NCBI RefSeq assembly: GCF_014195505.1
Contig: NZ_JACIBV010000001.1
Span: 1,054,001 to 1,118,000, forward strand
Direction: 5' to 3'
DNA from: Nonomuraea dietziae
Lineage (GTDB): Bacteria > Actinomycetota > Actinomycetes > Streptosporangiales > Streptosporangiaceae
DNA: 64,000 nucleotides
Positions 4,447 through 63,730 of this stretch are shown here, in pieces (the first letter of the stretch is position 1; every line of letters starts with the position of its first letter). The position numbers and the translations under genes are program-made. Below the pieces are notes generated by a model. The model worked only from the letters and a program-made list of their open reading frames with translations, searched no databases and was not told the origin of the DNA.

Positions 4447-4457
4447 GCGTGACTCCT

Positions 4458-40467: not shown

Positions 40468-40494
40468 CGGCCGGGCCATCACCGTGGAGAGCCC

Positions 40495-42311: not shown

Positions 42312-42517
42312 CGCGTTACCTCGAATCCAGCGGAGAATACTCGCCGATATCGAGGCTGCCGAATGGCCGGGCGCCGGTCAAGGCGGCGGGGAAAGGCGCA
42401 CGTGGCAGCTTATCCCGGGCCGGAACCTGCCATTGAGCAGTGGTTGTGCCAGGTGCCGGAAAAGCTGATCCTCGAACGTGTCCGGGATTATGCGACAACC
42501 GCTGGGGGTGGGAACCG
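42312..42517. promoter_or_regulatory. Divergent gap between carrier protein and second condensation gene
   Basis: About 206 bp with no convincing protein. The local composition is lower in GC than the neighbouring genes. It should contain promoters for the leftward carrier gene and the rightward condensation gene. No specific element could be assigned. Confidence 0.45.
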
Positions 42518-45055: not shown

Positions 45056-46237
45056 GTGAAGAAGCTCATCTATCTGGACGGCTGCGCGACGACGCGGGTG
45101 GACGACGAGGTGTTCGAGGCGATGCTGCCGTTCCTCCGCGAGGAGTACGGCAACCCCTCCTCCCCGCACGTGCTCGGCAAGCGAGCGAGGCGGGCCGTGG
45201 ACGAGGCGGCCGCCTCGGTGGCCGCCCTCATGGGGGCCGACCCCGCCGACGTGGTGTTCACCTCCGGCGCGACAGAGGGCAACAATCTGGCGCTGCTCGG
45301 CATGTTCGGCCACGACGACCGGGCGCCGGTCGGCGGGCTGTTCTGCCCGACCGACCACAAGTCGTCGCTGGCGATCGGCAGGGCGCTGGCCGCCCGCGGC
45401 GTGGACGTCAGGACGATGCGGGTCGGACCGGACGGCAGGATCGACCTGCAGCACCTGGCCGGCCTGCTCGACCTGCACTCCAGGGTGGCGACCACGGCCT
45501 GGGTCAACAGCGAGATCGGCACCGTGCAGCCGGTGGCGGCGATGGCCGCGCTCTGCCACGAGGTGGGGACCATGCTGCACGTGGACGCCGCCCAGGCGGC
45601 CGGGCGGGTCCCGCTGCGAGTGCGGGAGGCCGAGATCGACACGATGTCGCTGTCCGGGCACAAGATCCGCGGCCCCAAGGGCGTCGGCGCGCTGTACGTC
45701 CGGCCGGAGATCCGCCATCGGCTGCGGCCGGTCATGTTCGGCGGCGGGCAGTACGAGCTGCGCAGCGGGACGATCCCGACGCACCTGGTGGTCGGGCTGG
45801 GCAAGGCGTGCGAGCTGGCGCTGGCCCGGCTCGACGCCGAGCGGCGGCGGGCCGTCGAGCTGCGCGCCACCGCGCTGGACATGCTGCGCGCGGGACTGCC
45901 GGGCGTGCGCGTCAACGGCGACCCGCGCCACGGCGTGCCGCACGTGCTCAACGTGGTCCTGCCCGGCGTGCGCGGGGAGAGCCTGGTCTCCAGCCTGTCG
46001 ACGGTGGCGCTGGCCACCGGGTCGGCGTGCAACTCCGGCTCGCAGGAGCCCTCGCACGTCCTGACCGCCATCGGCCTGAGCGCACAGGACGCCAACAGCT
46101 CGGTCCGGATCTGCCTGGACGCCAGCATGCCGTTCGAAGATCTGGTGCTCGGCCTCGACCTGATCGTCGAACGGGCCCGCGACCTGGCGGGCGTGGTCGT
46201 CGCCATGGGCGGCCACGCCCCCTTCAGCCCGTCTTGA
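45056..46237 (+). CDS. Cysteine desulfurase (NifS/IscS type, class V aminotransferase fold)
   Basis: A 393-aa PLP enzyme that would convert L-cysteine to L-alanine and an enzyme-bound persulfide. The PLP lysine is in SGHKIRGPKG and the N-terminal YLDGCATT and GATEGNN motifs are typical. A Cys is present in the GSACNSGSQEPSHVL loop, matching the persulfide-forming Cys of IscS-type enzymes. GTG start at 45056 with GGAG upstream. No isc/suf genes are next to it; its position after the NRPS genes suggests sulfur supply for the product. Its 3' end overlaps the convergent regulator by 14 bp. Confidence 0.93.
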   Translation: MKKLIYLDGCATTRVDDEVFEAMLPFLREEYGNPSSPHVLGKRARRAVDEAAASVAALMGADPADVVFTSGATEGNNLALLGMFGHDDRAPVGGLFCPTDHKSSLAIGRALAARGVDVRTMRVGPDGRIDLQHLAGLLDLHSRVATTAWVNSEIGTVQPVAAMAALCHEVGTMLHVDAAQAAGRVPLRVREAEIDTMSLSGHKIRGPKGVGALYVRPEIRHRLRPVMFGGGQYELRSGTIPTHLVVGLGKACELALARLDAERRRAVELRATALDMLRAGLPGVRVNGDPRHGVPHVLNVVLPGVRGESLVSSLSTVALATGSACNSGSQEPSHVLTAIGLSAQDANSSVRICLDASMPFEDLVLGLDLIVERARDLAGVVVAMGGHAPFSPS

Positions 46238-47225
46238 GGAACTTCCTTGCCGCTTCCACCCCGGCCTGGAAGCGGCTGGTGGCGTCGAGGTCGCGCATGA
46301 GGGTGGCGATGTGCCGGCGGCAGCTGCGCACCGACATGCCGAGCTTCCTGGCCACCACCTCGTCGGTGTAGCCCTTGGCCATGAGCGTGGCGATGGACTG
46401 CTGGAGGTCGTCGGCGACGGTGGCGTAGCCGAACTCGACACCCTCCAGCGGCGTCGCCGTCTCCCACAGATGGTTGAACATGTCGAGGAAGAACTGGGCG
46501 ATCCCCTGGTTGCGCACCCGGGCGAGGCTGACGTCGCCACCTTCCCCACCCTCGCCGTCGCCGAACAGGACGACGAGTGAGCGGTCGAAGACGATCGCCG
46601 AGCGCGGCACGTGGCTGACGGTGTAGACCTCCACGCCTGCGTCGGTCAGCCGCTTCATCGCCAGCCGCGTGGCCACGTCGGCCCTGCTGCGGTGCTGGCA
46701 GATGACCCGCACGGTCACGCCCCTGGCGACCAGCACCAGGAACATCTGCGACAGGTCGCCGGCCTCGCCCACGCCGCCCTGCAGGACGAGCAGCTCGTCG
46801 CGGCAGGCGTCGCCGGCCGTCTTCAGGAAGCCGCGCACCTCCATGGCTCCCACCAGGTACTCCACGGTGCTGGGCGGAGGATCGCCGCCGGTCCTGGCGC
46901 CGAAGACGCCGACCCGCTCGCGGATCTGGTCGATGAGCTCGCGCCGCCGGTAGATCTCCCGCTCGACGGAGGACACCAGCGAGGCGACCGCGAGATCGGG
47001 ATCGACGGGCACGAACCGTCCGCCCGTGCCGTCGTCGGCGCGCAGCAGGCGGCTCTCCATCAGGTGCCGCACGGCCTCGCTCACCAGGTGGACGTCGATC
47101 CCCAGGTCGGCTGCGGCCACTTCGACCGCCTCGATCGCCCCCTTGCGGGCGGCATAGTGGTACACGTCGGTCACATGCTCGCCACCGGAGGGCGACCTGC
47201 CGGTGAACAGCGCCGTCATGGACAT
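46224..47225 (-). CDS. LuxR-type transcriptional regulator with TrmB/PLD-like sensor part
   Basis: A 333-aa regulator. The N-terminal part looks like a TrmB-type winged helix (HLVSEAVRHLMES region), the middle like the phospholipase D-like sensor fold seen in such regulators, and the C-terminus is a LuxR-type helix-turn-helix (GYTDEVVARKLGMSVRSCRRHIATL). I chose ATG 47225, 8 bp after AAGGAG; GTG 47234 is in frame. It lies last in the right-hand operon, 17 bp after rmlA. It is the only regulator in the window and is a candidate pathway-specific activator; its target sites are unknown. Confidence 0.85.
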   Translation of the reverse strand: MSMTALFTGRSPSGGEHVTDVYHYAARKGAIEAVEVAAADLGIDVHLVSEAVRHLMESRLLRADDGTGGRFVPVDPDLAVASLVSSVEREIYRRRELIDQIRERVGVFGARTGGDPPPSTVEYLVGAMEVRGFLKTAGDACRDELLVLQGGVGEAGDLSQMFLVLVARGVTVRVICQHRSRADVATRLAMKRLTDAGVEVYTVSHVPRSAIVFDRSLVVLFGDGEGGEGGDVSLARVRNQGIAQFFLDMFNHLWETATPLEGVEFGYATVADDLQQSIATLMAKGYTDEVVARKLGMSVRSCRRHIATLMRDLDATSRFQAGVEAARKFLKTG

Positions 47226-47241
47226 GATGGTCACTCCTTAC

Positions 47242-48120
47242 TCACCTGTTCGCGAACCGCTCGGCCACCGAGATGACGTACTGGCCGTAGGCGGACGTGC
47301 CGAGTTCGACGCCGAGCCGGTGGCACGTCTCGGCGTCGATGTAGCCCATGCGCAGGGCGATCTCCTCCAGGCAGGCGATCCGCACGCCCTGCCGCTGCTC
47401 CATGAGCTGGACGTACTGGCCCGCCTGCAGCAGCGACTCGGGGGTTCCCGCGTCCAGCCACGCGAAGCCGCGACCGAGGTCGACCAGCTTCGCCTTGCCT
47501 CTTTCGAGGTAGACGCGGTTGAGGTCGGTGATCTCCAGCTCGCCCCGCGCCGACGGGGTGAGGTTCTTGGCGATGTCGACCGCGTCGCCGTCGTACAGGT
47601 AGAGACCGACGATCGCGCGGTTGGAGCGGGGCGCCGCCGGCTTCTCCACGATGGACAGCAGCCGGCCGTCCGCGGCCGTCTCGCCGATGCCGTACCGGTG
47701 GGGGTCGCCGACGGGGTAGCCGAACAGCACGCAGCCGTCCAGGCTGCGGCACTCCTGACGGAGCAGTTCCTGGAAGGAGTGGCCGTGGAAGACGTTGTCG
47801 CCGAGGACGAGCGCGACCGGGTCGCCGCCGATGTGCCCGGCCCCGATCAGCAGGGCCTCGGCGATGCCGTTGGGCTCGGGCTGTTCGGCGTAGTCGAGGT
47901 GGAGTCCGAGGTGGGAGCCGTCGCCGAGCAGGCGGTGCAGCTGCGACAGGTCCCTGGGCGTGGTGATGATCAGGATGTCCCTGATCCCGGCCAGCATGAG
48001 CACCGACAGCGGGAAGTACACCAGCGGCTTGTCGTTGACCGGCAGGAGCTGCTTGGAGACCGCCAGCGTGGTGGGCAGCAGGCGGGTGCCCCGCCCTCCG
48101 GCGAGCAGGATGCCCTTCAT
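47242..48120 (-). CDS. rmlA: Glucose-1-phosphate thymidylyltransferase
   Basis: A 292-aa enzyme that makes dTDP-glucose, the first step to dTDP-deoxysugars. It carries the nucleotidyltransferase signature GGRGTRLLP, SKQLLPVNDKPL, LGDNVFHGH and EKPAAPRSN, and has the length of the short RmlA form. ATG 48120. No dehydratase, epimerase or glycosyltransferase gene is present in this window, so either the remaining sugar genes lie outside or they are supplied elsewhere in the genome. Confidence 0.95.
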   Translation of the reverse strand: MKGILLAGGRGTRLLPTTLAVSKQLLPVNDKPLVYFPLSVLMLAGIRDILIITTPRDLSQLHRLLGDGSHLGLHLDYAEQPEPNGIAEALLIGAGHIGGDPVALVLGDNVFHGHSFQELLRQECRSLDGCVLFGYPVGDPHRYGIGETAADGRLLSIVEKPAAPRSNRAIVGLYLYDGDAVDIAKNLTPSARGELEITDLNRVYLERGKAKLVDLGRGFAWLDAGTPESLLQAGQYVQLMEQRQGVRIACLEEIALRMGYIDAETCHRLGVELGTSAYGQYVISVAERFANR

Positions 48121-48146
48121 CGCGTTCCCTCCTTCCTGCCCGGCGC

Positions 48147-49298
48147 TCACGTGCGGGCCGGGGTACGGCGGCTGAACAGGACCAGGGAGGTGACCAGCAG
48201 GAGGGCGGCCATCCCTGCGAGCACGCCGAGCTGCGGCAGCACCGCGTCCAGGCCGGTGCCGGGCTCGGCGAGCGTCAGCAGCGCGTCCATCCCCCAGGCG
48301 TGCGGGAAGAGGTGGCCGATGGCGTTGAGCACCTCTCCCGAGGACTCGCGCGGCCACAGGCAGCCGCCGAGCATGCCGAGGACCACGCCGAGCGGCGGGC
48401 CGATCGCCGGAGCCTGGTCGGGCGATCGCAGCAGCGTGCCGACGAGGAGCGCGGCTCCGGTCGCGACGAGCGCGAACACGCCCACGACAGCCGCCACGCC
48501 GAGCGGGTCGCCCCACGAGACGCCGAACGCCAGCGCACTGACCACCACGATGAGCGCGGCCTGCGCGAGCGCGACGAACAGGCGGCTCAGCGCCTCGCCG
48601 AGCAGCACCGACCTGCGCCGCACGGGAGCGGTGAGCGCGCGCTGCAGCATGCCCAGCCGGCGGCTCTCCACCAGGGCGGCCGCCACGGCCATCGAGTTGA
48701 TAAAGGTGAACAGCAGCAGGTTGGCCGGGGCCGTGTACGCGAAGCCGCGCGGATCGCCGCCGCCCGTGGCCGAGCCGGTCACGCCGACGCGGCCAGACTC
48801 GGCCTGCGCCCTGCGCACGTACCCGGCGGCCTGCTCGGGAGTGGCGCCGGCGGCCACGACGGCCCTGGTGGCCTCGAGGACGGCGGCGACCTTGGCGACC
48901 GCGCCGTCGATGGCGCCGCGGGCGGCCAGGCCGCTGCCGTTGGTCTGGGTCACGACGAGGTCCAGGCGGCCGGCGCCTGGCGAGATGACCAGGCCGGCGG
49001 CCAGCGAGCCGGCCCGCACGCCGGACCGTACGTCCTCGGCCGCCTCCAAGGGCCGCACCTCCAGGTCGGGATGCTCGCGCAGCTCGGCGAGCAGGGCGGC
49101 GGTGACGGCGTCGGAGCCGGGGGCGACGACGCCGACGGGGAGCCGGGAGGAGCCCGCGCCGCCGCCGAACGCCATGCCGACGAACAGGATGGACACGAAC
49201 GGCATGACGACCATGAAGAACAGGCCGGTGCGGTCGCGGGTGTGCCTGCGCAGGTTGGCGGCCACCAGCGCGGCCACCGGCCTCGGGCGGAGGGTCAC
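48147..49298 (-). CDS. ABC-2 type transporter permease (second subunit)
   Basis: A 383-aa membrane protein with an N-terminal transmembrane helix (GLFFMVVMPFVSILFVG), a long extracytoplasmic section and about five C-terminal helices, the topology of ABC-2 exporter permeases. The GTG start at 49298 overlaps the preceding permease stop as GTGA. With the ATPase and first permease it forms an efflux pump, probably for the pathway product (self-resistance or export). Confidence 0.92.
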   Translation of the reverse strand: MTLRPRPVAALVAANLRRHTRDRTGLFFMVVMPFVSILFVGMAFGGGAGSSRLPVGVVAPGSDAVTAALLAELREHPDLEVRPLEAAEDVRSGVRAGSLAAGLVISPGAGRLDLVVTQTNGSGLAARGAIDGAVAKVAAVLEATRAVVAAGATPEQAAGYVRRAQAESGRVGVTGSATGGGDPRGFAYTAPANLLLFTFINSMAVAAALVESRRLGMLQRALTAPVRRRSVLLGEALSRLFVALAQAALIVVVSALAFGVSWGDPLGVAAVVGVFALVATGAALLVGTLLRSPDQAPAIGPPLGVVLGMLGGCLWPRESSGEVLNAIGHLFPHAWGMDALLTLAEPGTGLDAVLPQLGVLAGMAALLLVTSLVLFSRRTPART

Positions 49299-50473
49299 AG
49301 CAGCATCCCCTTCCTGAGGCCGAGGACGGCCAGGCCGCCCGCGCCGAGCGCGATCGCCAGCAGGACGCCGATCGGCCCCATGACGGCGGCCACGCTCGCG
49401 CCGGACCCGGCCAGCTCCGCCAGCGCCGTGGCGGTCCAGCCGTTCGGCGTCAGCAGCGCCACCGCCTGGAGCACGCCGGGCAGGCTGTGCAGCGGTACGA
49501 GGCTGCCGCCGAGGAACGCCATCACGAACGAGATGACCATGATCACCCCGTCGGCCTGGGCGTCGGTCTTGACCCTGGCGGCCACCAGCATGGTGATCGC
49601 GGCGGCGGCCAGCACGTGGGCGGTCAGCACGGCGAGCACCGCGAGCGGGTCGCCCCAGCTGGAGCCGAAGATCAGCGTGCCGGAGACCCAGGTGGCGCAC
49701 ACGCTGACCATGGCCAGCGCGAACCCGACCACGGCCTTGCCCGCGACCGGGACCCAGGCGGCGAGCGGCCCGGCCCGCATCCGGTCGAGGGTGCCGAGCT
49801 TGCGCTCGGTGAGCAGGCTCCTGAACGACGCGCCGACGACGAAGAAGGCGAACAGCGCCGCCATGCCGGAGCCGTAGTAGACCGCGAGGTCCACCTTGCC
49901 GCCGGCCAGCGGGTCTCCGGTGAGCGTGAGCGCGGGCCCTGCCGCGCCGTTGCGCTCCACCAGCTCCTTGACGCGCTCTCCTGGCACCCCTGCGAGCAGG
50001 GCGGCGCGCACCGCCAGCGTCCTGGCGTCCACGACCGCCGAGATGCGGTCCACGACGGCTCCCGCGACCACTCCGGCCAGCGGCGAGCGGGGCGAGGTCA
50101 GGACGGTGACGTCGCCGCCCTCCCCCGCGCCGACGCTGCGGGTGAACCCGGCGGGGAAGATGATGGCCGCGCCGATCTCGTCGGCGTCGAGCGCCCGCCT
50201 CGCCTCCCCGCCGCTCGGCAGGTCGCGCAGCGTCACGCTGCCCTTCAGCTCCTCTGCCGCCGTCACCTCGCGCCGCACGCTGGCGGGGAACTCTCCGCCG
50301 TCCAGGTCCACGAAGCCGACCGTGGCGCGCAGCGGCGGGTCGTCGCCGCCCAGGGCCAGCCCGAACAGCGTGGCCAGGGTCACCGGCACGACGAGCGCGA
50401 TGACGATCGCGGTGCCGTCGCGCAGGCGGGTGCGCAGTTCGAGTGCGCTCACCGTGAGCATGGCTCGCCACAT
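49295..50473 (-). CDS. ABC-2 type transporter permease (first subunit)
   Basis: A 392-aa permease of the same topology as its neighbour: an N-terminal helix (AIVIALVVPVTLATLFGLALG), a large external domain, then several hydrophobic helices towards the C-terminus. ATG 50473 lies 2 bp after the ATPase stop. The two permeases differ clearly in sequence, so the exporter is probably a heterodimer. Confidence 0.92.
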   Translation of the reverse strand: MWRAMLTVSALELRTRLRDGTAIVIALVVPVTLATLFGLALGGDDPPLRATVGFVDLDGGEFPASVRREVTAAEELKGSVTLRDLPSGGEARRALDADEIGAAIIFPAGFTRSVGAGEGGDVTVLTSPRSPLAGVVAGAVVDRISAVVDARTLAVRAALLAGVPGERVKELVERNGAAGPALTLTGDPLAGGKVDLAVYYGSGMAALFAFFVVGASFRSLLTERKLGTLDRMRAGPLAAWVPVAGKAVVGFALAMVSVCATWVSGTLIFGSSWGDPLAVLAVLTAHVLAAAAITMLVAARVKTDAQADGVIMVISFVMAFLGGSLVPLHSLPGVLQAVALLTPNGWTATALAELAGSGASVAAVMGPIGVLLAIALGAGGLAVLGLRKGMLL

Positions 50474-50475
50474 GA

Positions 50476-51414
50476 TCAGTCCCGCAGGGTGGTGCCGGTG
50501 AGGTGCAGGAAGGTCGCTTCCAGGTCGGGTTCGATGACCTGGGTGGCCGTCACGGTGGCATGCCCCTCCACGGCGGTGATGAGCGACGGCAGCAGGTACC
50601 TGCCGCCGTCGGCCATCAGGCGGACCGACGCGGCCCCGGTCCTGACGGCCTCGGCCACGCCCTCGACGGCGCGCAGCTTGGCGCAGGCGGCTTCGACGTC
50701 GCCGTCGAGCACCAGCTCGACGGTGTCTGCGCCGCCGACCAGGGAGACCAGCTCGCGGCGGGTGCCGTCGGCGACGATGCGGCCGTGGTCGATGATCGCC
50801 ACCCGGTCGCAGACCCGCTCGACCTCCTCCATGTAGTGGGAGGTGTACAGCAGCGCCATGCCGTCGCCGACCAGGCGTTCCAGGCCTTCGAGGATGGCCT
50901 TGCGGCTCTGCGGGTCCACGCCCACGGTGGGCTCGTCGAGGATGAGCACCTCGGGGCGGTGCAGCAGGGCGGCCCCGATGTTGATGCGCCGCTTCATGCC
51001 GCCCGAGTAGGTGCCGAGCTTGGTGTCGGCCCGGTCGGCGAGGCCGATCAGGTCGAGCACCTCGGCGATGCGCGTGGCCAGGGCGCGGCGGGGAAGGCCG
51101 AAGAGCCGGCCGAAGAAGCGCAGGTTCTCCCGGCCGGTCAGCTCCGGGTAGAGGGCGATCTCCTGCGGCACGTAGCCGATCCTGGACTTGGCGCGCAGCG
51201 GCTCGCGGGCCAGGTCGACGCCGCCGACCAGGACGGTGCCCGTGTCCGGCCGCAGCAGACCCACCAGCATGGAGATCGTGGTGGTCTTGCCCGCGCCGTT
51301 GGGGCCGAGCAGGCCGTACGCCTGGCCTGGGGCGATGGAGAAGCCGACGTCGTGCACGGCGACCAGGTCGCCGTAGCGCTTGCCGAGTCCCCCGCAGGAC
51401 AGGGCGGCCGTCAT
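50476..51414 (-). CDS. ABC transporter ATP-binding protein (DrrA-type)
   Basis: A 312-aa ATPase driving the two neighbouring permeases. Walker A is [10 protein letters not shown], the signature is YSGGMKRR, Walker B is [13 protein letters not shown], followed by the switch His in TSHYMEEVE. The C-terminal about 80 residues form the extension typical of DrrA-like drug exporters. ATG 51414 overlaps the beta-helix stop as ATGA. Confidence 0.95.
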
Positions 51415-52427
51415 CGCCGCCACCCCTGCACGTCCTGCGGGTCGCCCTTGGCGGCGGTGTTGGCGGCGAACACCTGCCGGGCGGGGTCGGCGCCGAGCTG
51501 ATAGTCCAGCGGGGTGTTGCCGGTGACCCGGTTCCACAGCACGTGGCAGTCGAGGACGTCGTCGCCGCCGAAGTCCTTGGAGGAGCCCATGACGAACCCC
51601 GCGCCCATGACCGACTCGCCGCCGGGATGGTTGTCGTGGATGTGGTTGTCCACGACGGTGACCCGGTGCGTGCCGATCAGGGCGAGGCCGACGCCCGAGA
51701 TCGGCGGGCCGGCCGCGCCCAGGCCGTCCTGCTCGGCGCCCGCGGCCAGCACGTTGCCGTACAGGTCGTTGCCGGCCACCAGGCAGTCTCGTACGCCGCC
51801 CTCGGGCTCGCCCTCGTACACCTGGTTGAGCAGCAGGATGCCGATCGCGTTGCCGTGGCAGGCGTTGCCCAGCACCCTGGCCTCGGAGGAGTTGTCCACG
51901 AAGACGCCGAAGGCGTTGGCGGTGCACTCGTTGCCGGCGATCTCCGCGCCGGAGCGCGGGCAGAAGCTCAGGGCGACGCCGCCGTACTGGCTGCCCGAGG
52001 CCCTGCAGCGCACGACCCGGCAACCGGTGGACTCGCGCAGGTAGATCCCCCAGACGGCGTTGTCGCGCACCTCCACCTCGTGCACGGTCACGCCGGCGGC
52101 CGAGTGGGCGTAGACGCCGGCGCCGGAGAAGCCCCGCACGGTCAGCGCCTCCACGCGCACGTCGCCCGCGAGCTCGCCGTGCACGGTGAGGCCGCTGACC
52201 ACGTCCTCGGCCGCGTCGTGCAGCCGGGGGACGTCGGGCGGCCCGCCGCCGCCCGGCACCAGCACCGTGCGCCCTGCCCCTGCGCCGGTCAGCGTCACGC
52301 CGGGCTGCCTGATCCACACACTCTGCGCGTACGTCCCCTCCTCCAGCAGGATCCGGGCGCCGGGTCCGCTCTCGTCCAGCGCCCGCTGGATCGACTCCCC
52401 CGGTGAGACCGTTCTCGTCACGGACAT
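51411..52427 (-). CDS. Right-handed parallel beta-helix protein (NosD/pectate-lyase-like fold)
   Basis: A 338-aa protein built of short repeats such as VTLTGAG, VRVEALTVRGFSGAG, VHEVEVRDNAVWGIYL and AEIAGNECTANAFGVFVDN, typical of parallel beta-helices. There is no signal peptide, so a cytosolic role is likely. Such folds include polysaccharide lyases, isomerases and epimerases; here no catalytic triad is identifiable. Its start overlaps the AcpS-like gene by one base (TGATG) and its stop overlaps the ABC ATPase, so it is embedded in the biosynthetic operon. Function unknown; a cyclase, epimerase or binding role is possible. Confidence 0.85.
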   Translation of the reverse strand: MSVTRTVSPGESIQRALDESGPGARILLEEGTYAQSVWIRQPGVTLTGAGAGRTVLVPGGGGPPDVPRLHDAAEDVVSGLTVHGELAGDVRVEALTVRGFSGAGVYAHSAAGVTVHEVEVRDNAVWGIYLRESTGCRVVRCRASGSQYGGVALSFCPRSGAEIAGNECTANAFGVFVDNSSEARVLGNACHGNAIGILLLNQVYEGEPEGGVRDCLVAGNDLYGNVLAAGAEQDGLGAAGPPISGVGLALIGTHRVTVVDNHIHDNHPGGESVMGAGFVMGSSKDFGGDDVLDCHVLWNRVTGNTPLDYQLGADPARQVFAANTAAKGDPQDVQGWRR

Positions 52428-53682: not shown

Positions 53683-53701
53683 CAAGGCTCCAGTCACTCG
53701 G

Positions 53702-55934: not shown

Positions 55935-55952
55935 GTCGTCTCCCTTCGCCGA

Positions 55953-56822
55953 CTAGAGCCGGCGCCTGGGGCGCCGCTCCTGGTGCGCGGGCCGTTCGGT
56001 GCCGAGGAAGCCGAGCAGCAGCTTGTTGACCTCGTCGGGGGCGTCCAGAGGGAGCCAGTGGCCGGCGTCCTCGATCCGCTCGTAGCGCCACGGACCCTTG
56101 ACGTACTTGCCGGAGGCGGCCATGCCCTCCTCCAGGAGCGCCTTGTCGCCCGCCCCCCAGATGCCGAGCGTCGGCGCGTACACCGGCGGGAACGGCCGGG
56201 CGGGGCGCAGCTCGGCCTCGGGCGAGCGGTTGGCCCTGTACCAGTTGAGCCCGGCGGTGAGCGCGCCGGGTCTGGCCAGGTCGCGCAGGTAGCGGTCGTG
56301 GTCGCCTTCGCGGCCCATGATCTCCTTGAACAGCCGCCAGCCGTTGCGCCGCAGCAGTTCCTCGCTCACTCCGGGGAACTGGTAGAAGAGCATGTACCAG
56401 GAGGCGGCCCGCTGCTCCAGCGAGGGCGTGGCGAAGACGCCGGGGTGGCCGACCGACATGACCACCAGGTGGTCGAGCCTGCGCGGCATCAGGAAGGCGT
56501 ACATCCAGGCGATCGCCGCCCCCCAGTCGTGGCCGACCAGATGCGGGCGTTTGACGCCCAGGTGGAGCGTGAGGGCCACGACGTCGTTGACGATGGTCTG
56601 CATGCCGTAGGCGGCGGCCTCCTGCGGCTTGCCGGAGTCGCCGAAGCCGCGCAGGTCGGGCGCGATGACCCGGAAACCGCCCTCGACGAGCGCCGGGATC
56701 TGATGACGCCACAGGTAGGAGGAGTCGGGGAAGCCGTGCAGCAGGATCACGGGCTCGCCCTCGCCCTCGTCCAGGTAGGCGAGTTCCACGTCGTTGACGC
56801 GTACGGTTCTCTTCTCGGTCAT
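55953..56822 (-). CDS. Epoxide-hydrolase-like alpha/beta-hydrolase
   Basis: A 289-aa protein of the epoxide hydrolase / haloalkane dehalogenase group. HGFPDSSYLW is the oxyanion motif, GHDWGAA carries the nucleophilic Asp, and EDAGHWLPLD the catalytic His. Such enzymes open epoxides to diols, and two FAD-dependent oxygenase-like genes lie close by. ATG 56822 overlaps the flavoprotein stop as ATGA, suggesting that the two act in sequence. Confidence 0.88.
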   Translation of the reverse strand: MTEKRTVRVNDVELAYLDEGEGEPVILLHGFPDSSYLWRHQIPALVEGGFRVIAPDLRGFGDSGKPQEAAAYGMQTIVNDVVALTLHLGVKRPHLVGHDWGAAIAWMYAFLMPRRLDHLVVMSVGHPGVFATPSLEQRAASWYMLFYQFPGVSEELLRRNGWRLFKEIMGREGDHDRYLRDLARPGALTAGLNWYRANRSPEAELRPARPFPPVYAPTLGIWGAGDKALLEEGMAASGKYVKGPWRYERIEDAGHWLPLDAPDEVNKLLLGFLGTERPAHQERRPRRRL

Positions 56823-58063
56823 GCCGTCTCCCTGAACAGCCGTTCAGCGAAGAACTCGCTGAAGCCGAACTCCGGTACGTCCTCCGGGGCGACCATGTTG
56901 AGCAGCCCGGTCACCTGCGCAGCGAAGTTGCGCGCCATGAGCTTGCGGACCCTGCGCCTGCGCTCGACGGCGGCGGGCCCGAACTCCACGTGCAGCCTGC
57001 TGATGATGGAGGCGCCGAAGTCCAGGCGCTCCAGGCGGAAGTCACGCTCCTCCACGTACGGCGCGAACGCCGAGGGCGACCAGTCGGAGGAGGCCAGCAG
57101 GATGTCGCAGACCGTGCGGGAGTCGCGCATGGCGCAGGACAGGCCGGTGCCGAGCACGGTGTCGGCGTTGCCCGCCTCGTCGCCGATCAGCACGACGCCC
57201 TCGGTCAGCGGCGGCCCCTCGGGGACGCTGGACACCGACGGCCACACCGACAGCGGGCCCGCGGGCGTCGCCTCGGTCACCGCCTTGCCCCGGTCCGGCA
57301 GGCACTCCAGCTCGAAGGCGGCCATGAACCGCTCGACGCCGCCAGGTCCCCTGTAGCGGTGCTTGTTGGCGGTGGGGAAGTTGAGGTAGAGGCGGGCCCG
57401 GCCGTAGCCCTGGGGGAAGACCATGAACATGACGTCGCCCTCGGTGCCCATGGCCTGCACGTCGGGCGGCCAGCCGGCCATGTCCTCGACCATCATGCCG
57501 CCGCCCCAGTGGTGCATGGAGTTGCGCATGGTGATGCCGACCTGGCGGCCGACCGTGCAGCCGCGGCCGGTGGCGCCGAGCACGAGGCGGGGCCGCAGCT
57601 CGAACGCGCCCTCCGGGGTCCGGTAGGTGACGACGGGCCGCTCACCGGGAACCACGACGATCTTGGAGGCGTTCATCACCAGGCGGGCGCCGGAGGCGGC
57701 GGCCTGCTCCGCCATCAGCGCGCACACGGCGTGGTGCGGGAAGGACATGGGGCCGCCGACGCCGGGGATGAACCTGGTCATGTCCACCGCCTCGACCTCG
57801 TCGTCCGTGACGGCTTCGTCCCAGGTCATCCACTCGCGGATCTCCCAGGCGCCGCCGGCCGAGAAACAGTCGTAGACGCCCAGGCGCTGCGCCTCCCTGA
57901 TCCCCCATGGCGCGAGCCACTCTCCGCGGACCAGATCCTGGTAGGTGTCCTGCTTCTCCAGCAGCACCACGGAAAGCCCGCCGGCGGTCAGCTTGCAGGC
58001 GGCCGACGCGCCGGCGATGCCGCCGCCGACGATGACGACGTCGGGCGGCTCGGGTCGGGTCAC
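56819..58063 (-). CDS. FAD-dependent oxidoreductase/monooxygenase
   Basis: A 414-aa flavoprotein with a dinucleotide-binding motif VVIVGGGIAGASAA at the N-terminus and the second FAD motif VVLIGDEAGNADTVLGTGLS, as in group A flavin monooxygenases and geranylgeranyl-reductase-like proteins. GTG 58063 overlaps the nitroreductase stop as GTGA. Likely roles are epoxidation or hydroxylation of the polyene or an aromatic part; the halogenase Trp motif WxWxIP was not seen. Confidence 0.88.
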   Translation of the reverse strand: MTRPEPPDVVIVGGGIAGASAACKLTAGGLSVVLLEKQDTYQDLVRGEWLAPWGIREAQRLGVYDCFSAGGAWEIREWMTWDEAVTDDEVEAVDMTRFIPGVGGPMSFPHHAVCALMAEQAAASGARLVMNASKIVVVPGERPVVTYRTPEGAFELRPRLVLGATGRGCTVGRQVGITMRNSMHHWGGGMMVEDMAGWPPDVQAMGTEGDVMFMVFPQGYGRARLYLNFPTANKHRYRGPGGVERFMAAFELECLPDRGKAVTEATPAGPLSVWPSVSSVPEGPPLTEGVVLIGDEAGNADTVLGTGLSCAMRDSRTVCDILLASSDWSPSAFAPYVEERDFRLERLDFGASIISRLHVEFGPAAVERRRRVRKLMARNFAAQVTGLLNMVAPEDVPEFGFSEFFAERLFRETA

Positions 58064-58788
58064 TGCCCCCACCTCTCCCAGTAGGTGCGTTCCTTGGCTC
58101 GGTAACGGTCGGCCGGGCGGAAGCCGGCGCCCAGCGTGTAGGCGACGGGGATCATGCAGACCTGCGTGACCCCTGTGGGTATGCCGAGCAGGCGCCCGGT
58201 CTCGCGTTCGTGCGGCACGTGCAGGCACGTGATCGTGCTGCCTAACCCCCTGCTGCGCAGGGCGAGCTGGAAGGACCAGATGGCGGGGAAGATGGAGCCG
58301 TAGAAGATGCTGGCCCGCGTCTCGCCGTGCTGGACGAGGTGGCCGGGGTCGTCGGCGATCTTGTCCGCCATCCGCGCGCGCCAGCGGGCGTTGATGGCGG
58401 CGATGTCCGGCGGCCTGCCCAACACGCAGGGGATGACCAGCACCGGCACCGCCGCGATCGTCTCGGTGAGCGCCTGCGCGGAGTCGTAGTTGCGGCGGGC
58501 CTGCGCGTCGTTGCGCCGCCGGCCCGCGTTGGTCCACATGTCGTTGCGGTGGAAGGCCCAGGACGAGCGGATCATCTCGGCGAGCTTCTCCTTGACGCCC
58601 GCCTCGGTGATCACCAGCCAGCGCCAGTTCTGGTGGTTGTTGGCGGTGGGCGCCTGGACGGCGACCTCCAGGGCCTGCTCCACGATCTCCCGGGGTACGG
58701 GCCGGTCCAGGTCCAGCCTGCGGCGCACGGACCGGGTGGTGGTCAGCAGCCGGTCGGTCTCGGCCACGTCGAAGGGCATCCGGCTCAC
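58060..58788 (-). CDS. Nitroreductase-family FMN oxidoreductase
   Basis: A 242-aa protein of the nitroreductase fold: SVRRRLDLDRPVP with the FMN phosphate-binding Arg residues, APTANNHQNWRW, and the C-terminal GIPTGVTQVCMIPVAYTLG. Members reduce nitro groups, quinones or enones, or catalyse oxidative dehydrogenation as in azoline oxidases. The GTG at 58788 overlaps the KS-CLF stop as GTGA; ATG 58779 is an alternative. Confidence 0.9.
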   Translation of the reverse strand: MSRMPFDVAETDRLLTTTRSVRRRLDLDRPVPREIVEQALEVAVQAPTANNHQNWRWLVITEAGVKEKLAEMIRSSWAFHRNDMWTNAGRRRNDAQARRNYDSAQALTETIAAVPVLVIPCVLGRPPDIAAINARWRARMADKIADDPGHLVQHGETRASIFYGSIFPAIWSFQLALRSRGLGSTITCLHVPHERETGRLLGIPTGVTQVCMIPVAYTLGAGFRPADRYRAKERTYWERWGQ

Positions 58789-61076
58789 ACCGCCTCCAGC
58801 AGGACGGCGCCGCGGACCGAGTCGTGCGCCGCGGTCAGCGCCAGCGCGCTCGCCATCGGACCCGCGAGTTCGGGGCGGGTCACGTACGAGCCCCTGTCGC
58901 CGGCGAGCGGCGCGGTGAGCCCGGTCAGCGCGGGGGCGAGACCGTCGCGGACCGCGAGTGCGGCCAGGGCGATGTTCATCGCGCCGGTGGCCGCCTGGCA
59001 GTCGCCGATGAGCGCCGCCGAGGCGGTGAGCAGCGCGCCCGGCATGCGGGCCAGGACCGCCGCCGCCTCCTCGCCGTCGCGGGGCAGCCCGGTGGCCGCG
59101 CCCACGACCAGGCCTGGTGCCGCTCCGGGCAGCGCGAGGCTGCGCGCCACCGGCTCGGCTCCCTCTCCTGCCGCGTGCCTGGTGCCTGCCACGCGGGCGT
59201 ACGGCCTGCCGCCGCGCGCCGCGCAGTGGTCGGCGGACTCGACCACGAAGGCCACGGCCCCCGATCCGGTCACCGGCTCCACCGCCTCCGCCCCGTACGG
59301 CACCGGCCCGTCGTCCTCGAACGGCGCGGAGGCGCCGCCGGGGGCGGGCCTGGCGGGCGTCTCGTCGGCGGCGACGACCAGGACCACCTCGGCCTTGCCC
59401 GCGTCGATCATCTCCAGCGCGCAGTCCAGGGCGATGGACGCCGACGCCGCGCCGTTGCAGAGGGTCGTGGTGGGGCCGCGCAGCCCGAGCGTCTGGCAGA
59501 CCGCGCCGCCGGTGGCGTTCAGCACGACGTTGGAGAAGCTCAGCACGGCCGGCTTGTTCGGGTTGAGCGCGATGCTGTCGTCGAAGCCGCCGGTGCTCTC
59601 GGCCGATCCCGCCCCTGTGGCGAAGACCAGCGCGACGTCGTCCAGCGCTTTGCGCGGCAGCTTGAGCTCGGCGTCCTCCCAGGCCAGGCGGGAAGCCGCG
59701 ATCGCCAGGCGGGACAGGCGGTTCATGTGCCGCCACAGTGAGCGCGGCGCGAACGTCCGGCCTTCGAGCGACGGGGCCTGCCCGGCCGCGCGGCGACCTG
59801 CGGCGATCGCCGCGGCCGTCTCGGCGATGCCGGTGCCGGCGCCGGTGACCGGCCCCAGCCCGCTGATCACCGCCTGCCTGCGGGGCGCCGGCTCGTACGG
59901 AACCGGGTCCCTGGGCCTGGCCAGCACGAGCGAGACGTTGTTGCCGCCGAAGGCGTAGTTGTTGGAGACCACGGTGTCGATGGGCATCGCCCTGGCCTGG
60001 TTCGGCACGTAGTCCAGGTCGGCCTGCGCGCCGTCGTCGAAGCCGATCGTGGGCGGCGCCACGCCGTGGCGCAGGGCCAGCACGCTGGCCACGGCCTCGA
60101 CCGCACCGGCGGCGCCGAGGGTGTGGCCGACGAAGGACTTGATGCTGCTGGTGGGTACCCGGGCGGCCCGCTCGCCGAAGACCAGGCGCATGACCTTGGC
60201 CTCCATGGCGTCGTTGGCCGGGGTGCCGGTGCCGTGCCCGCTGACGTAGTGGACGTCGCCGGGTGTGAGCCCGGCTTCGGCCAGTGCGCGGCGCACGGCG
60301 CTGGCCCCGCCGCGCCCGGTGGGGTCGGGGGCGGTGGCGTGGTAGGCGTCGGCGGACAGCCCGTAGCCGGCGACCTCCGCCAGCGGCGTCACCCCTCTGG
60401 CGAGCGCCAGGTCCAGCGGCTCCAGCAGCAGGAACGCGGCGCCCTCGCCGAGGTTGAGCCCGTCGGAGCGGCTGTAGGGCCGGCACGGGCCGGTGCTCAG
60501 TGCCTGCAGCCCGGCGAAGCCCGCGTAGGTGCCGAACAGCAGCGGGTCGACGCCGCCTGCCAGGACCGCGTCGGCCTCGCCGGTGAGGATCTTGTCCCTG
60601 GCCAGGCCGACCGCGTTGCCGCCGGCGGCGCAGGCGGTCGAGACGAGGATCCGCGGCCCGCGCAGGCCGAGCCGCTCCGCGACCACGTCGGCGGTGTGGT
60701 GCATGGGCTGGTAGCGCCCGGCGGGCCCTGGGGTGGCCTGGCACTTGCCGAGGATGATGCCGAACCGGTCGGGGGCGGGGGCCGCCCGTGCCGGCCCCGC
60801 CTGCTCGACCCCTGCCTGCTCGACCGCCTGGCGGGCGGCGACGAGCGCGAGCCGCGCGGTGCGGTCCCCTGCCTGCTCGCCTGCGGGCAGCTGGGCGTCG
60901 ATCCACTCGTCGGGCACCTGACCCGCGTGCCTGGCCGTGAACACGGCGAACGCCTCGTCCTCGATCGGGGCGAGCCCGCCCCTGGCCGTGGTGAGCCGCG
61001 TCCAGAACTCCTCGGGGTTCCTGCCGGCCGCGCAGATGATGCCCAGGCCGGTGACGACGACGGGCCGCAGCGCCAT
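58785..61076 (-). CDS. Fused ketosynthase - chain-length-factor-like protein (type II PKS)
   Basis: A 763-aa protein with two tandem FabF-like thiolase domains. The first (1-390) has a full KS triad: Cys149 in STACAAGG, His281 in GHGTGTPAND and His318 in FVGHTLGAAG. The second (400-763) lacks all three: at the Cys position (about 543) the aligned residue is Ala in LCNGAASAS, and no HGTGT follows. This is the arrangement of a KS and a CLF, normally two genes, in one polypeptide. ATG 61076 has an AGGAGG site 6 bp upstream. With FabG, FabZ, ACP and AT it would build a reduced, polyunsaturated chain. Confidence 0.93.
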   Translation of the reverse strand: MALRPVVVTGLGIICAAGRNPEEFWTRLTTARGGLAPIEDEAFAVFTARHAGQVPDEWIDAQLPAGEQAGDRTARLALVAARQAVEQAGVEQAGPARAAPAPDRFGIILGKCQATPGPAGRYQPMHHTADVVAERLGLRGPRILVSTACAAGGNAVGLARDKILTGEADAVLAGGVDPLLFGTYAGFAGLQALSTGPCRPYSRSDGLNLGEGAAFLLLEPLDLALARGVTPLAEVAGYGLSADAYHATAPDPTGRGGASAVRRALAEAGLTPGDVHYVSGHGTGTPANDAMEAKVMRLVFGERAARVPTSSIKSFVGHTLGAAGAVEAVASVLALRHGVAPPTIGFDDGAQADLDYVPNQARAMPIDTVVSNNYAFGGNNVSLVLARPRDPVPYEPAPRRQAVISGLGPVTGAGTGIAETAAAIAAGRRAAGQAPSLEGRTFAPRSLWRHMNRLSRLAIAASRLAWEDAELKLPRKALDDVALVFATGAGSAESTGGFDDSIALNPNKPAVLSFSNVVLNATGGAVCQTLGLRGPTTTLCNGAASASIALDCALEMIDAGKAEVVLVVAADETPARPAPGGASAPFEDDGPVPYGAEAVEPVTGSGAVAFVVESADHCAARGGRPYARVAGTRHAAGEGAEPVARSLALPGAAPGLVVGAATGLPRDGEEAAAVLARMPGALLTASAALIGDCQAATGAMNIALAALAVRDGLAPALTGLTAPLAGDRGSYVTRPELAGPMASALALTAAHDSVRGAVLLEAV

Positions 61077-61107
61077 GCTCTGCCTCCTTCTCAGCGTGAC
61101 CTGCCGA

Positions 61108-62172
61108 TCAGATGATCGGGATGCTCCAGCTCTTGGGCACGATGTACGGGCTGGTCAGCGTGGTGACGTCGACGCCGCCGACGGTCAGGCCGAGACCTGC
61201 CGCCGCCAGTTCGGGGTCCACGCGGGCCAGGCCGAGGGTGGCGCCGAGGCCGGCGCTCTGCACGGCGTAGACGACCTCGCCCACGTCCTGGCCGCCGGCG
61301 AGCACGCGGGTGCCAGGCGCAGGGACGCCCTCGCAGCCGGTGAAGCCGACCGTGCGTAGCCCGCCTCCGGTCTCGAAAGCCTCCAGCACGGCGGCGCGGC
61401 CGACGAAGTCGTCCTTGGTGATGTCGACCAGCCAGTTGGCGCCGATCTCGATCACCGAGGCGCCCGGGGTGGCCTCGTGGCGTGGGATCGGCTGGCGCAC
61501 CTCCAGCATCGCCAGCTCCAGCGCCTCCTGCCCCGCGGCCTGCGCGTGCTCCAGCGCGCCCGCCCACAGGCCGGGCGCGGCCTGCCTGGGGACGATCATC
61601 TGATAGCCGTACTCGCCGGTGTAGCCGGTCCTGGCGAAGACGATGTCCACGCCGTTCCAGGTGGTGTCCACCACGGACTCGAACGGCAGGGAGGCGAGTT
61701 CGCCGTCGATCAGCCGACCGACCACGCCCCACGCGTACGGGCCCTCCAGTCCGATGACCGTCAGGTCGGCGGAGCGGTCGGCGATCTCGGCGCCCTCCTC
61801 GGCGTGCGCCAGCAGATGGTCCAGCAGGCGGGCGCCGGCGCCGCAGGAGCTCTCCAGGAGCAGCCCCTCCTCCCGGCCGAAGGCGACGACCTGGTCCACG
61901 ACCTGGCCGGACTCGTCGAGAACGAGGCTCATCATGCAGCGGTCGGAGGTGAGGTACTCCACGTCGCGGGCCAGCACCCGCTGGGCGAAGTCCACGGCGG
62001 CGGGGCCGGTGATCTCGATGAGCCGGTGCCCGCCGAGGTCGAGCACGGCCGCGCGCTCCCTGAGCACCTGGTACTCCTGCGGGAAGGAGGAGAAGCGCAG
62101 CGGGACGGTGGCGTCGCCCACGTCGCCGTAGACGGTGTCCTCCGGATGCAGGGACGCGAGGACGCTAGCCAT
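61108..62172 (-). CDS. GcvT-like folate-binding protein (aminomethyltransferase family)
   Basis: A 354-aa protein of the glycine-cleavage T / YgfZ family: LDLGGHRLIEITGPAAVDF, VLDESGQVVD, GLEGPYAWGV, ARTGYTGEYGYQMIVP and a C-terminal barrel ending in a SPYIVPKSWSI-like tail. These proteins bind tetrahydrofolate and move one-carbon units or demethylate substrates. Glycine-cleavage partners P, H and L are absent, so a pathway-specific role, perhaps C1 transfer to the product, is inferred. ATG 62172, 3 bp after the dehydratase gene. Confidence 0.88.
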   Translation of the reverse strand: MASVLASLHPEDTVYGDVGDATVPLRFSSFPQEYQVLRERAAVLDLGGHRLIEITGPAAVDFAQRVLARDVEYLTSDRCMMSLVLDESGQVVDQVVAFGREEGLLLESSCGAGARLLDHLLAHAEEGAEIADRSADLTVIGLEGPYAWGVVGRLIDGELASLPFESVVDTTWNGVDIVFARTGYTGEYGYQMIVPRQAAPGLWAGALEHAQAAGQEALELAMLEVRQPIPRHEATPGASVIEIGANWLVDITKDDFVGRAAVLEAFETGGGLRTVGFTGCEGVPAPGTRVLAGGQDVGEVVYAVQSAGLGATLGLARVDPELAAAGLGLTVGGVDVTTLTSPYIVPKSWSIPII

Positions 62173-62175
62173 GGT

Positions 62176-62652
62176 TCACACCTTTCGCACAGAACGTTGG
62201 GTCGCCGGATCGGCGATCGTGAGGTTTCCTTCGGCGGCGACCTGGCCGTCCACCCGGGCCGAGACCCGGTACTCGGCGAACCCCGAGCCGCCGGCGGTCT
62301 GCTCGGCCGTCAGCACGAGCTGGTCGCCGGGCACGACCGGGCGGCGGAAGCGCATCGACCTGACGCCCGCCAGGTAGCTGATCTCGCTGGCGCCCGCCAG
62401 GGCGAAGACCACGCCGGCGAGCTGGGCCATGGCCTCGACCACGACGACCCCGGGCAGCACCGCCTGGCCGGGGAAGTGTCCCTGGAACCACAGCTCGGTG
62501 CCGGTGACGTTCTTGGTCGCCGTTCCCTTGACGCCGGGCACCACCTTGACGACCCGGTCGAGCAGCAGCATCGGCCAGCGGTGCGGCAGGACGGCGCGGA
62601 CCTGGTCGTGGGTCAGCCCGGAGACGGGCGGCGCCTGCTGTGCCACCGTCAT
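62176..62652 (-). CDS. fabZ: FabZ-type beta-hydroxyacyl-ACP dehydratase
   Basis: A 158-aa hot-dog-fold dehydratase. The signature PHRWPMLLLDRV and HFPGQAVLPGVVVVEAMAQ, with the catalytic His and Glu, are intact. It would dehydrate the beta-hydroxyacyl-ACP made by the ketoreductase at 62978. ATG 62652 overlaps the ACP stop as ATGA. A FabZ in a gene cluster without enoylreductase suggests retention of double bonds. Confidence 0.94.
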   Translation of the reverse strand: MTVAQQAPPVSGLTHDQVRAVLPHRWPMLLLDRVVKVVPGVKGTATKNVTGTELWFQGHFPGQAVLPGVVVVEAMAQLAGVVFALAGASEISYLAGVRSMRFRRPVVPGDQLVLTAEQTAGGSGFAEYRVSARVDGQVAAEGNLTIADPATQRSVRKV

Positions 62653-62939
62653 GCCGGCGCCCTCAGCGTGGGGTCGACCTCGTCGGCCAGTCGCGACACC
62701 GAGCCGAACACCGCCATGTCGCTGTCGTAGAGCGCGACGCCGAACTCGGCCTCGATGGCGACGTAGAGCTCCAGCACGTCGAGGCTGTCCAGCTCGAGGC
62801 CGCGGCCGAACAGCGGCTGGTCGTCGGTGATCCAGCCGGGCTCGATCTCCAGATCGAGCCGCGACACGATCATCTTCTTGATCTGGCTGCAGGTCTGCTG
62901 CCGCTGGGCGGCCTTCGCCCGCAGTTCGTCGATGGTCAT
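62649..62939 (-). CDS. Discrete acyl carrier protein (type II PKS)
   Basis: A 96-aa carrier protein with the phosphopantetheine Ser in GLELDSLDVLEL and a clearly acidic character. It should carry the growing chain for the KS-CLF, KR and DH of this operon. ATG 62939 has a GGAG site 6 bp upstream; the frame opens further to 62981, but that would overlap the preceding gene and adds an untypical N-terminus. Confidence 0.93.
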   Translation of the reverse strand: MTIDELRAKAAQRQQTCSQIKKMIVSRLDLEIEPGWITDDQPLFGRGLELDSLDVLELYVAIEAEFGVALYDSDMAVFGSVSRLADEVDPTLRAPA

Positions 62940-62977
62940 GGGTTCTCCTTGTGCGCCAGGCTGATGGTGGGGGCCGG

Positions 62978-63730
62978 TCACTGGAGGCCACCGCCGTGCG
63001 CGACGACCACCGAGCCGGACATGTACGAGGCCTTGTCCGAGGCGAGGAAGCTGACGATGGAGGCGATCTCCTCCGGCCGGCCCATCCGGCCCAGGCGGAT
63101 GCGCGACTCGTAGCGCTTCTTGATGTCGGCGGGCACCTTGCGGGTCATGTCGGTGGCGACGAAGCCGGGGGCGACCACGTTGGCCCGCACCCCGTGCGGG
63201 GCCGCCTCGTTCGACAGCGCGTGGGTGAAGGCGATGATCGCGCCCTTGGACGCCACGTAGTTGGTCTGGCCGGGAAAGCCGCCGTCGAGCCCGCTGGAGG
63301 AGGAGATGGTCACGATCGATCCGCTCCGCTGGTGCTGCATCACCTTCAGCGCCTCCCGGCAGGCGAGGAAGGTGCCGACGAGGTTGGTGTCCACGGGGGC
63401 GCGGAACTGCTCCAGGCTCATCGCGATGAGGTAGCGGTCCCTGGTGACGCCGGCGCTGGTCACCAGCACGTCGAGCCGCCCGTGCTCGGCCCGCACGGTG
63501 CGGAAGAGGCGCTTGACCGCCTCCTCGTCGGTGACGTCGGCCTGCACGGCGCTCGCGCTGCCGCCCTCCTGCGCGATCTGGTCGGCCACTTCCTTGGCGT
63601 CGCGCTCGGACTGGGCGTAGTTGACGATGACGTGGGCGCCCTCCCTGGCCAGGTCGAGCGCGACGGCCCGGCCGATCCCGCGGGACCCGCCCGTCACCAC
63701 GGCCACAGAGCCGGGGGCAAAGAGCATCAT
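62978..63730 (-). CDS. fabG: FabG-type 3-oxoacyl-ACP reductase
   Basis: A 250-aa short-chain dehydrogenase. TGGSRGIG binds NADPH, with the catalytic Ser in TISSSSGLDG, and Tyr/Lys in NYVASKGA; the NVVAPGFVATDM motif is also typical of FabG. It reduces beta-ketoacyl-ACP in the type II system. Two ATG codons in tandem (63730 and 63727) follow GGAGAG; the second has the better spacing. It is the first gene of the minus-strand operon and diverges from the monooxygenase at 63868. Confidence 0.94.
   Translation of the reverse strand: MMLFAPGSVAVVTGGSRGIGRAVALDLAREGAHVIVNYAQSERDAKEVADQIAQEGGSASAVQADVTDEEAVKRLFRTVRAEHGRLDVLVTSAGVTRDRYLIAMSLEQFRAPVDTNLVGTFLACREALKVMQHQRSGSIVTISSSSGLDGGFPGQTNYVASKGAIIAFTHALSNEAAPHGVRANVVAPGFVATDMTRKVPADIKKRYESRIRLGRMGRPEEIASIVSFLASDKASYMSGSVVVAHGGGLQ

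Follow-up and report, generated by a model that had tools for sequence, protein, structure and literature searches.

A probable reducing type II polyketide synthase cassette with a fused ketosynthase-chain length factor and a degenerate GcvT-like protein in Nonomuraea dietziae

The window analysed here, a 64,000-nt stretch of the 10.2-Mb genome of Nonomuraea dietziae, contains at 46224-63730 a run of nineteen minus-strand genes that carry the parts of a reducing type II polyketide synthase (PKS), among them a ketosynthase (KS) fused to a chain length factor (CLF) and, next to it, a protein of the GcvT fold. The genes, called with start codons that we chose, fill the interval with coding-type codon-position G+C content, and of the 18 junctions between them 12 are overlaps of 1 or 4 bp and six are gaps of 2-31 bp; the original prediction of nineteen same-strand genes that mostly overlap by 1-4 bp is borne out by these features together with family matches and conservation. 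At the head of the run stand a FabG-type ketoreductase (KR; 62978-63730; NF009466 234.4 bits, cut-off 222; TIGR01830 277.7 bits, below its cut-off of 297.75; PF13561), a discrete acyl carrier protein (ACP) of 110 aa with a GLELDSLD motif (62649-62981; PF00550, 1.6e-8), a FabZ-type dehydratase (DH) of 158 aa (62176-62652; NF000582 143.3 bits, cut-off 113), the GcvT-fold protein, which carries an EYGY signature and lacks the T-protein catalytic Asp (61108-62172; PF01571, 1.9e-37, and motif comparison), and the KS-CLF fusion (58785-61076; Pfam and alignment). A FabD-like acyltransferase (AT) follows further along (54993-55934; PF00698, 7.7e-35; TIGR00128 197.5 bits, below its cut-off of 260.9).

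The KS-CLF fusion is a single open reading frame (ORF) of 763 aa, as had been claimed, and by its residues it is real, pairing a putatively active KS with a putatively inactive CLF. In the window's protein the KS half keeps C149, H281, K313 and H318, and the CLF equivalents are A543, A660 and D692. Across an alignment of this protein and 19 others chosen from 120 listed fusions, the KS Cys-His-Lys-His set is intact in 20/20, and in all 20 the Cys site of the CLF half is taken by A, G, N or E, with His missing from both His sites. An AlphaFold model of the single chain (predicted template modelling score, pTM, 0.92) shows a predicted KS-CLF didomain fold, and its rank 1 match in the PDB is 6riw, the KS-CLF didomain of PfaC (TM score 0.78 across both halves, 20% identity, root-mean-square deviation 7.6), so that polyunsaturated fatty acid (PUFA) synthases already provide a precedent for the fusion. 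It had been put forward as unusual; it does depart from the separate KS and CLF subunits of highly reducing type II PKSs, but single-chain KS-CLF proteins are known from PUFA synthases, and the fusion is less new than first thought and the GcvT-like protein more interesting. The KS half alone scores best with 9s5h_B, a 3-oxoacyl-ACP synthase (265 bits), ahead of FabF (239) and 6kxd_A (190). KS-CLF fusions occur in many actinomycetes; a profile built from the C-terminal half also matches complete ketosynthases, and the matches of a class-wide CLF profile search in 360 of 394 genomes, judged by ORF length to be mostly ordinary KSs, do not amount to a family count.

The GcvT-like protein spans both GcvT domains, PF01571 and PF08669, and has lost residues that canonical T-proteins keep. 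We compared 17 KS-associated rows, namely the window's, ten of the 21 relatives that stand besides L031 and L032 in a larger, overlapping 24-row alignment, and six others. The second Asp of the canonical DD, which we take to be the catalytic Asp (D96 of the Thermotoga T-protein), is replaced by Q, I, A, L or E in all 17 and in a copy from Thermosporothrix (18/18), and the 24 rows of the larger alignment agree on its loss. A loop reading GEYGY or AEYGY is present in the same 17 rows and in the Thermosporothrix copy, and the Arg of a later RD motif is lost in 17/17. Seven canonical GcvT rows, among which is a GcvT encoded elsewhere in the N. dietziae genome, all show DD, GE(D/H/R)G(F/Y)E and RDT, and a tree separates the 17 from the seven by one 100/100 branch (the Thermosporothrix copy stands outside this tree). 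Judging from these residues, the GcvT-like protein most likely no longer transfers aminomethyl groups; we read it as a partner that the KS-CLF acquired, probably once, from the T-protein family.

Seventeen of the nineteen genes, from FabG to the second ATP-binding cassette (ABC) permease (48147-63730), form the conserved block. Their order and strand are kept in 15 of the 15 relatives whose sequence spans it (G005, G025, G022, G033, G048, G027, G043, G026, G018, G032, G003, G426, G336, G367 and G276), with a broken or partial match for one gene, AcpS2, in G005 and G025 and a KS-CLF match 88% long in G025, and the order holds to the end of the fetched sequence in eight more (G016, G036, L024-L027, L029 and G117). 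Conservation of this extent is far above chance. A divergent form of the block, mostly at 40-60% identity, occurs in G021 and at L028, which we take to be the same locus as G034 and count once; matches to the FAD-binding and beta-helix proteins were not found in it, G021 being covered only to the first permease. The GcvT-like gene (E < 1e-90) is present in 17 of the 54 genomes searched in the genus, the window's own included; 15 of these have the main type and two the divergent form. A scan of genome contigs with two very general KS patterns gave at least 80 loci; among those listed, six are of the window's own class (L024-L029), and the remainder are wider KS proteins, of which L030 (Thermosporothrix), L031, L032 and L035 were used.

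Within the block, the KS-CLF gene is followed by genes for a nitroreductase-family flavoprotein (58060-58788; PF00881, 4.5e-17), a flavin adenine dinucleotide (FAD)-binding protein (56819-58063; PF01494), alpha/beta hydrolase 1 (55953-56822; PF00561, 2.1e-34) and, past the AT, two proteins related to phosphopantetheinyl transferases (PPTases), AcpS1 (54544-54996) and AcpS2 (52427-52906), between which lie a SnoaL-domain protein (53702-54544; PF07366, 4e-11, at residues 7-123) and alpha/beta hydrolase 2 (52903-53697; PF12697, 7.4e-11). The SnoaL-domain protein continues beyond its domain into a further long conserved stretch and then a C-terminal Cys-rich tail (RCPxC...CxCG in most aligned rows). 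Next come a right-handed parallel beta-helix protein (51411-52427; PF13229, 6.3e-16; 55-71% identity in five relatives), a DrrA-type ABC ATPase (50476-51414; TIGR01188 291.1 bits, below its cut-off of 312.45; PF00005), ABC-2 permease 1 (49295-50473; PF12698) and ABC-2 permease 2 (48147-49298; PF12698), which synteny in relatives marks as the last conserved gene. RmlA, a glucose-1-phosphate thymidylyltransferase (47242-48150; TIGR01207 395 bits, cut-off 360.65), and a probable helix-turn-helix (HTH) regulator (46224-47234) complete the run. Pfam and NCBIfam matches uphold the predicted FabG, FabZ, ACP, AT, KS, GcvT-like protein, nitroreductase, two hydrolases, SnoaL-type protein, beta-helix protein, exporter and RmlA. 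The predicted list left out the FAD-binding protein, for which its own count of 19 leaves space; its regulator has sub-threshold HTH_23 and GerE matches only; and RmlA, listed as an operon member, is present in the window but missing at that place in five of 15 relatives. RmlA stands at the block end in 10 of 15 and the regulator in 14 of 15, G426 showing neither; RmlA is optional there and belongs with the deoxysugar genes.

How far does the pairing of GcvT-like protein and KS-CLF extend? In the window's class the core order is FabG-ACP-FabZ-GcvT-KSCLF. The Priestia megaterium plasmid pBM500 has PPTase-AT-FabG-ACP-FabZ-GcvT-KSCLF, with the AT annotated as a malonyltransferase, the GcvT-like protein as a 'glycine cleavage T C-terminal barrel' protein and the KS-CLF as a KS family protein, and the actinomycete genome G313 has the same seven genes in identical order. 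In a search of plasmids, four Priestia records give the best GcvT matches (168 bits, against 107 for the next in line), and these four also top the KS-CLF list. An Arthrobacter locus (L031) reads AT-FabG-ACP-FabZ-(extra protein)-GcvT-KSCLF, and Rhodococcus L032, Streptomyces L035 and G322 likewise have an extra protein inserted between FabZ and GcvT of FabG-ACP-FabZ-GcvT-KSCLF. In Thermosporothrix (Chloroflexota) FabG, ACP and FabZ come first, and the GcvT-like gene stands after them with other genes in between. The core set of PPTase, AT, FabG, ACP, FabZ, GcvT-like protein and KS-CLF is thus found, in full or for the most part, in Actinomycetota, Bacillota and Chloroflexota, and on the sequence evidence the GcvT-like protein marks a cross-phylum class of type II synthase. 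The linkage of KS-CLF with GcvT-like and AcpS-like genes, which the prediction had suggested looking for in actinomycete genomes, holds in all 15 spanning relatives and is also found beyond the window's class. This combination is the part of the finding that is new to us: as the prediction had held, no described cluster or paper with a KS-CLF fusion and a GcvT-like protein was found in searches that covered open PubMed Central texts only.

The company that the core keeps varies. In Rhodococcus L032 lantibiotic-dehydratase-like, PALP and OCD genes border it at one end and a RamC-like kinase-cyclase gene borders it at the opposite end; Streptomyces L035 also has dehydratase (LanB)-, PALP- and OCD-type genes, and G322 (L161) PALP and OCD types, a set that suggests lipid-bearing lanthipeptides. 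The extra protein of Rhodococcus (L032, 6822-8909) is about 695 aa long with no Pfam match; it lies between FabZ and GcvT in Rhodococcus and Streptomyces and has partial similarity in Arthrobacter and Thermosporothrix. A Lachnospira eligens megaplasmid (L176, 9245-14554) carries ACP, KS-CLF fusion, FabG, FabZ and AT, with no GcvT-like protein among the annotated neighbours.

For the PPTase step the block offers two genes. Both had been predicted as AcpS-like; AcpS2 is so by Pfam (PF01648, 3.1e-6), and AcpS1 is without a Pfam family, its assignment coming from alignment and from a structure model that folds as a PPTase and matches the PPT domain of fungal fatty acid synthase (FAS) and AcpS. We take the motifs of AcpS-type PPTases to be GxD and KE, which bind the metal, and SxSH. 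In an alignment of the window and 13 relatives, AcpS1 keeps SxSHT and has lost the metal-site Glu in 14/14 rows, and AcpS2 keeps GVD and VKE in 14/14 and has lost SxSH in all 11 rows with a readable C-terminus (G005 and G025, where the AcpS2 reading enters the next frame, and G036, at a contig end, were excluded for that region). By these motifs the two appear to be complementary degenerate PPTases. Their complementary losses and the AcpS1 fold raise the possibility, to which we give somewhat less than even weight, that they form one heteromeric PPTase, with AcpS2 contributing the metal site and AcpS1 the SxSHT motif that binds coenzyme A (CoA). Against this, the Priestia and G313 cassettes each have one AcpS2-like protein, in which SxSH is likewise missing; AcpS2 may therefore work without AcpS1, although the search for AcpS1 did not take in the rest of those genomes. 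Other PPTase-like genes also lie nearby. Four stand in the cluster region in all: a HetI-like gene (414-1169, below cut-off), AcpS1, AcpS2 and an Sfp-like gene read by eye in the adjoining stretch L011 (10237-10935; position 74237 in the window's numbering).

We propose that the block is a self-contained reducing type II PKS cassette set in a hybrid cluster. PPTase activity would arm the discrete ACP, the FabD-like AT would load malonyl units, and the fused KS-CLF would elongate the chain iteratively, with FabG and FabZ turning each beta-keto group into a trans-enoyl group, so that the product on the ACP would be a polyenoyl-ACP, or an enoyl chain if cycles are few. The GcvT-like protein might dock on the ACP-bound chain and aid elongation, double-bond placement or release, a guess prompted by the T-protein, which works on another swinging-arm carrier, the H-protein. 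Modification or release of the chain would then fall to the nitroreductase, FAD-binding, SnoaL-domain and beta-helix proteins and the hydrolases, and export of the product to the ABC system. As predicted, no enoylreductase family is recognised among the block's Pfam and NCBIfam matches, though an unrecognised reductase could still exist; the 'Enoyl-(ACP) reductase' title of PF13561 belongs to a short-chain dehydrogenase/reductase family that includes FabG. A cassette of this kind would leave its chain unsaturated, and the polyene acyl unit that the prediction had named survives as the simplest and a plausible form of what is likely, given a reducing type II set, an unsaturated acyl product.

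A chain elongated only a few times and then cyclised or aromatised by the SnoaL-type, nitroreductase and FAD enzymes would yield a short or ring-bearing unit instead. The presence of these proteins speaks for such a route, as do matches of the KS half to the cispentacin protein AmcF (249 bits) and of FabZ to AmcE (73 bits), and polyene-derived cinnamoyl groups may be a possible comparison beside the cispentacin and coronafacate KS-CYF systems. These matches nevertheless fall below the model cut-offs (325 for AmcF, 140 for AmcE; AmcG reaches 26.6 against 80), FabF models score higher, and AmcG, a 157-position model, is much smaller than the CLF half here. We consider the short or cyclised product unlikely.

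The block does not stand alone. A modular PKS of five ORFs (5355-38848, minus strand) lies downstream of it, comprising by domain matches a loading module with a KS of the KSQ type, an AT and an ACP, three modules with DH-KR and three with KR only. Between it and the block are pieces of a nonribosomal peptide synthetase (NRPS): a condensation-domain-like protein (38962-40467, plus strand; PRK05691, 3.9e-18, below cut-off), a stand-alone adenylation domain (40495-42162, plus; TIGR01733 320.8 bits, cut-off 317.4), a small carrier protein (42042-42311, minus; an ORF with a PF00550 match at contig positions 1096099-1096254) and a stand-alone condensation domain (42518-44164, plus; PF00668, 1.6e-23). 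A methoxymalonyl-ACP-type set of FkbH, acyl-CoA dehydrogenase, ACP and 3-hydroxyacyl-CoA dehydrogenase (1965-5309, minus; family matches) falls outside the sequence fetched from relatives, and the adjoining stretch L011 encodes a SARP-type regulator, a glycosyltransferase, a DegT aminotransferase, a 3,5-epimerase, a C-methyltransferase and a 2,3-dehydratase. Of the 14 main-type relatives for which 9 kb or more past the block was fetched, 13 have a modular PKS match there, and many sugar and NRPS neighbours recur in relatives, differing between lineages. We read the block, the modular PKS, the NRPS pieces and the deoxyaminosugar genes as one larger conserved biosynthetic cluster; the compact operon originally described is real, and it appears as part of this larger cluster, to which it had not been connected. 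A conserved protein without an assigned family (44161-45051, plus; sub-threshold Pfam match only) and a cysteine-desulfurase-like pyridoxal phosphate protein (45056-46237, plus; TIGR03235 330.7 bits, below its cut-off of 480) are kept beside the NRPS pieces in relatives whose sequence reaches there.

Within such a cluster the cassette's chain is probably a second building block of a larger, antibiotic-like molecule, joined to an amino acid by the stand-alone condensation, adenylation and carrier proteins (38962-44164) and then added to the modular polyketide. That it would instead serve as the starter of the modular PKS might be supposed from their place in one conserved cluster; yet the first modular ORF opens with a KS bearing Q for Cys (DTGQSS), followed by an AT and an ACP, and a KSQ loading module makes its own starter by decarboxylation, which leaves a starter role for the type II chain quite improbable. 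Least credible is an active GcvT-like enzyme that uses folate or another one-carbon carrier to add a one-carbon or aminomethyl group to the chain: its match over both Pfam parts and its retained Gly-x-Thr-(Gly/Ala)-Glu loop element are outweighed by the replaced catalytic Asp site, the lost RD-motif Arg, the absence of H-, P- or L-protein genes among the block's Pfam and NCBIfam matches and the separate canonical GcvT of the same genome. The 'unusual tailoring' that had been suggested for the gene set is unlikely to be the work of a GcvT-like enzyme, given the lost Asp and the recurrence of the gene with the KS-CLF as core equipment.

Several observations weigh against the proposed cassette and its partnership. 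KS-CLF fusions without a GcvT-like neighbour exist (G195, G419, G294, G261 and Lachnospira), and KS-CLF as such does not need the GcvT-like protein; in Thermosporothrix the KS-CLF lies about 12 kb from the GcvT-like gene and in opposite orientation. The KS-CLF tree places the 15 GcvT-linked rows, Thermosporothrix included, on one side of a weak split (66/52), and the GcvT tree gives long-branch warnings. No modular PKS match occurs in about 16 kb downstream in G034, which has the divergent form, or in about 9 kb downstream in G426, and in some lineages what the cassette makes may not be joined to a polyketide; the suggested link to an amino acid comes from the neighbouring genes only. The nitroreductase or the FAD-binding protein could reduce double bonds, so that the chain might not be a polyene. 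With these points counted, we put the probability of the cassette and its whole proposed pathway at about 0.6. More tentatively, at a little under an even chance, we suggest that a degenerate T-protein was recruited once as the dedicated partner of the fused KS-CLF and that the two spread together across Actinomycetota, Bacillota and Chloroflexota, entering modular-polyketide and lanthipeptide-type clusters.

A class of reducing type II PKS is now defined by gene order and diagnostic residues. Its members match general FabF and GcvT models and carry such names in public records, so that they are easy to overlook for what they are; the EYGY signature and the KS-CLF fusion, taken together, give an easy marker by which genomes can be mined for acyl chains of hybrid antibiotics, and the missing enoylreductase makes the product class, an unsaturated acyl chain, directly testable by reconstitution. 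A GcvT-fold protein kept with an ACP-dependent synthase and free of folate use would be a metabolic enzyme turned PKS partner. If the recruitment scenario is true, this protein would represent a new type of PKS accessory factor, acting on the ACP-bound chain without folate chemistry, and the synthase would be in effect a PUFA synthase dismantled into single proteins.

Among known systems, the glycine cleavage T-protein shares its fold family and both Pfam parts with the window's GcvT-like protein, which differs from it in the loss of the catalytic Asp and the RD-motif Arg and in a block where no gcvH or gcvP was matched. The PUFA synthase PfaC likewise joins a KS to a CLF behind it in a single polypeptide, and our model matches both halves of 6riw; PfaC belongs to a multidomain megasynthase, whereas the 763-aa protein here, at 20% identity, stands beside ACP, AT, KR and DH that are all discrete genes. 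Highly reducing type II PKSs of the ishigamide type likewise have a discrete ACP, a FabG-like KR, a FabZ-like DH and a KS with a CLF, and no enoylreductase; here KS and CLF are fused, and the KS half is nearer FabF than 6kxd_A, a structure that we take to come from an ishigamide-type system. To our knowledge, no GcvT-like partner has been described in that class. The cispentacin pathway also has a small reducing set in which a type II KS, AmcF, goes with a partner that is not catalytic, AmcG, but these are separate genes, and the AmcF and AmcG family models fall below cut-off on the window's proteins; the terms GcvT and aminomethyltransferase are absent from the main text of that source (PMC10698177). 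KS/CLF gene pairs also occur in a cluster of a toxic-bird Amycolatopsis (PMC11446937). A further comparison is with the zeamine and chitinimine PKS-NRPS-PUFA hybrids, the main text of whose description (PMC13291983) does not contain the term GcvT: there too a lipid-type synthase lies beside modular PKS and NRPS genes, the lipid part being a pfa-like multidomain synthase, unlike the discrete genes of the Nonomuraea block.

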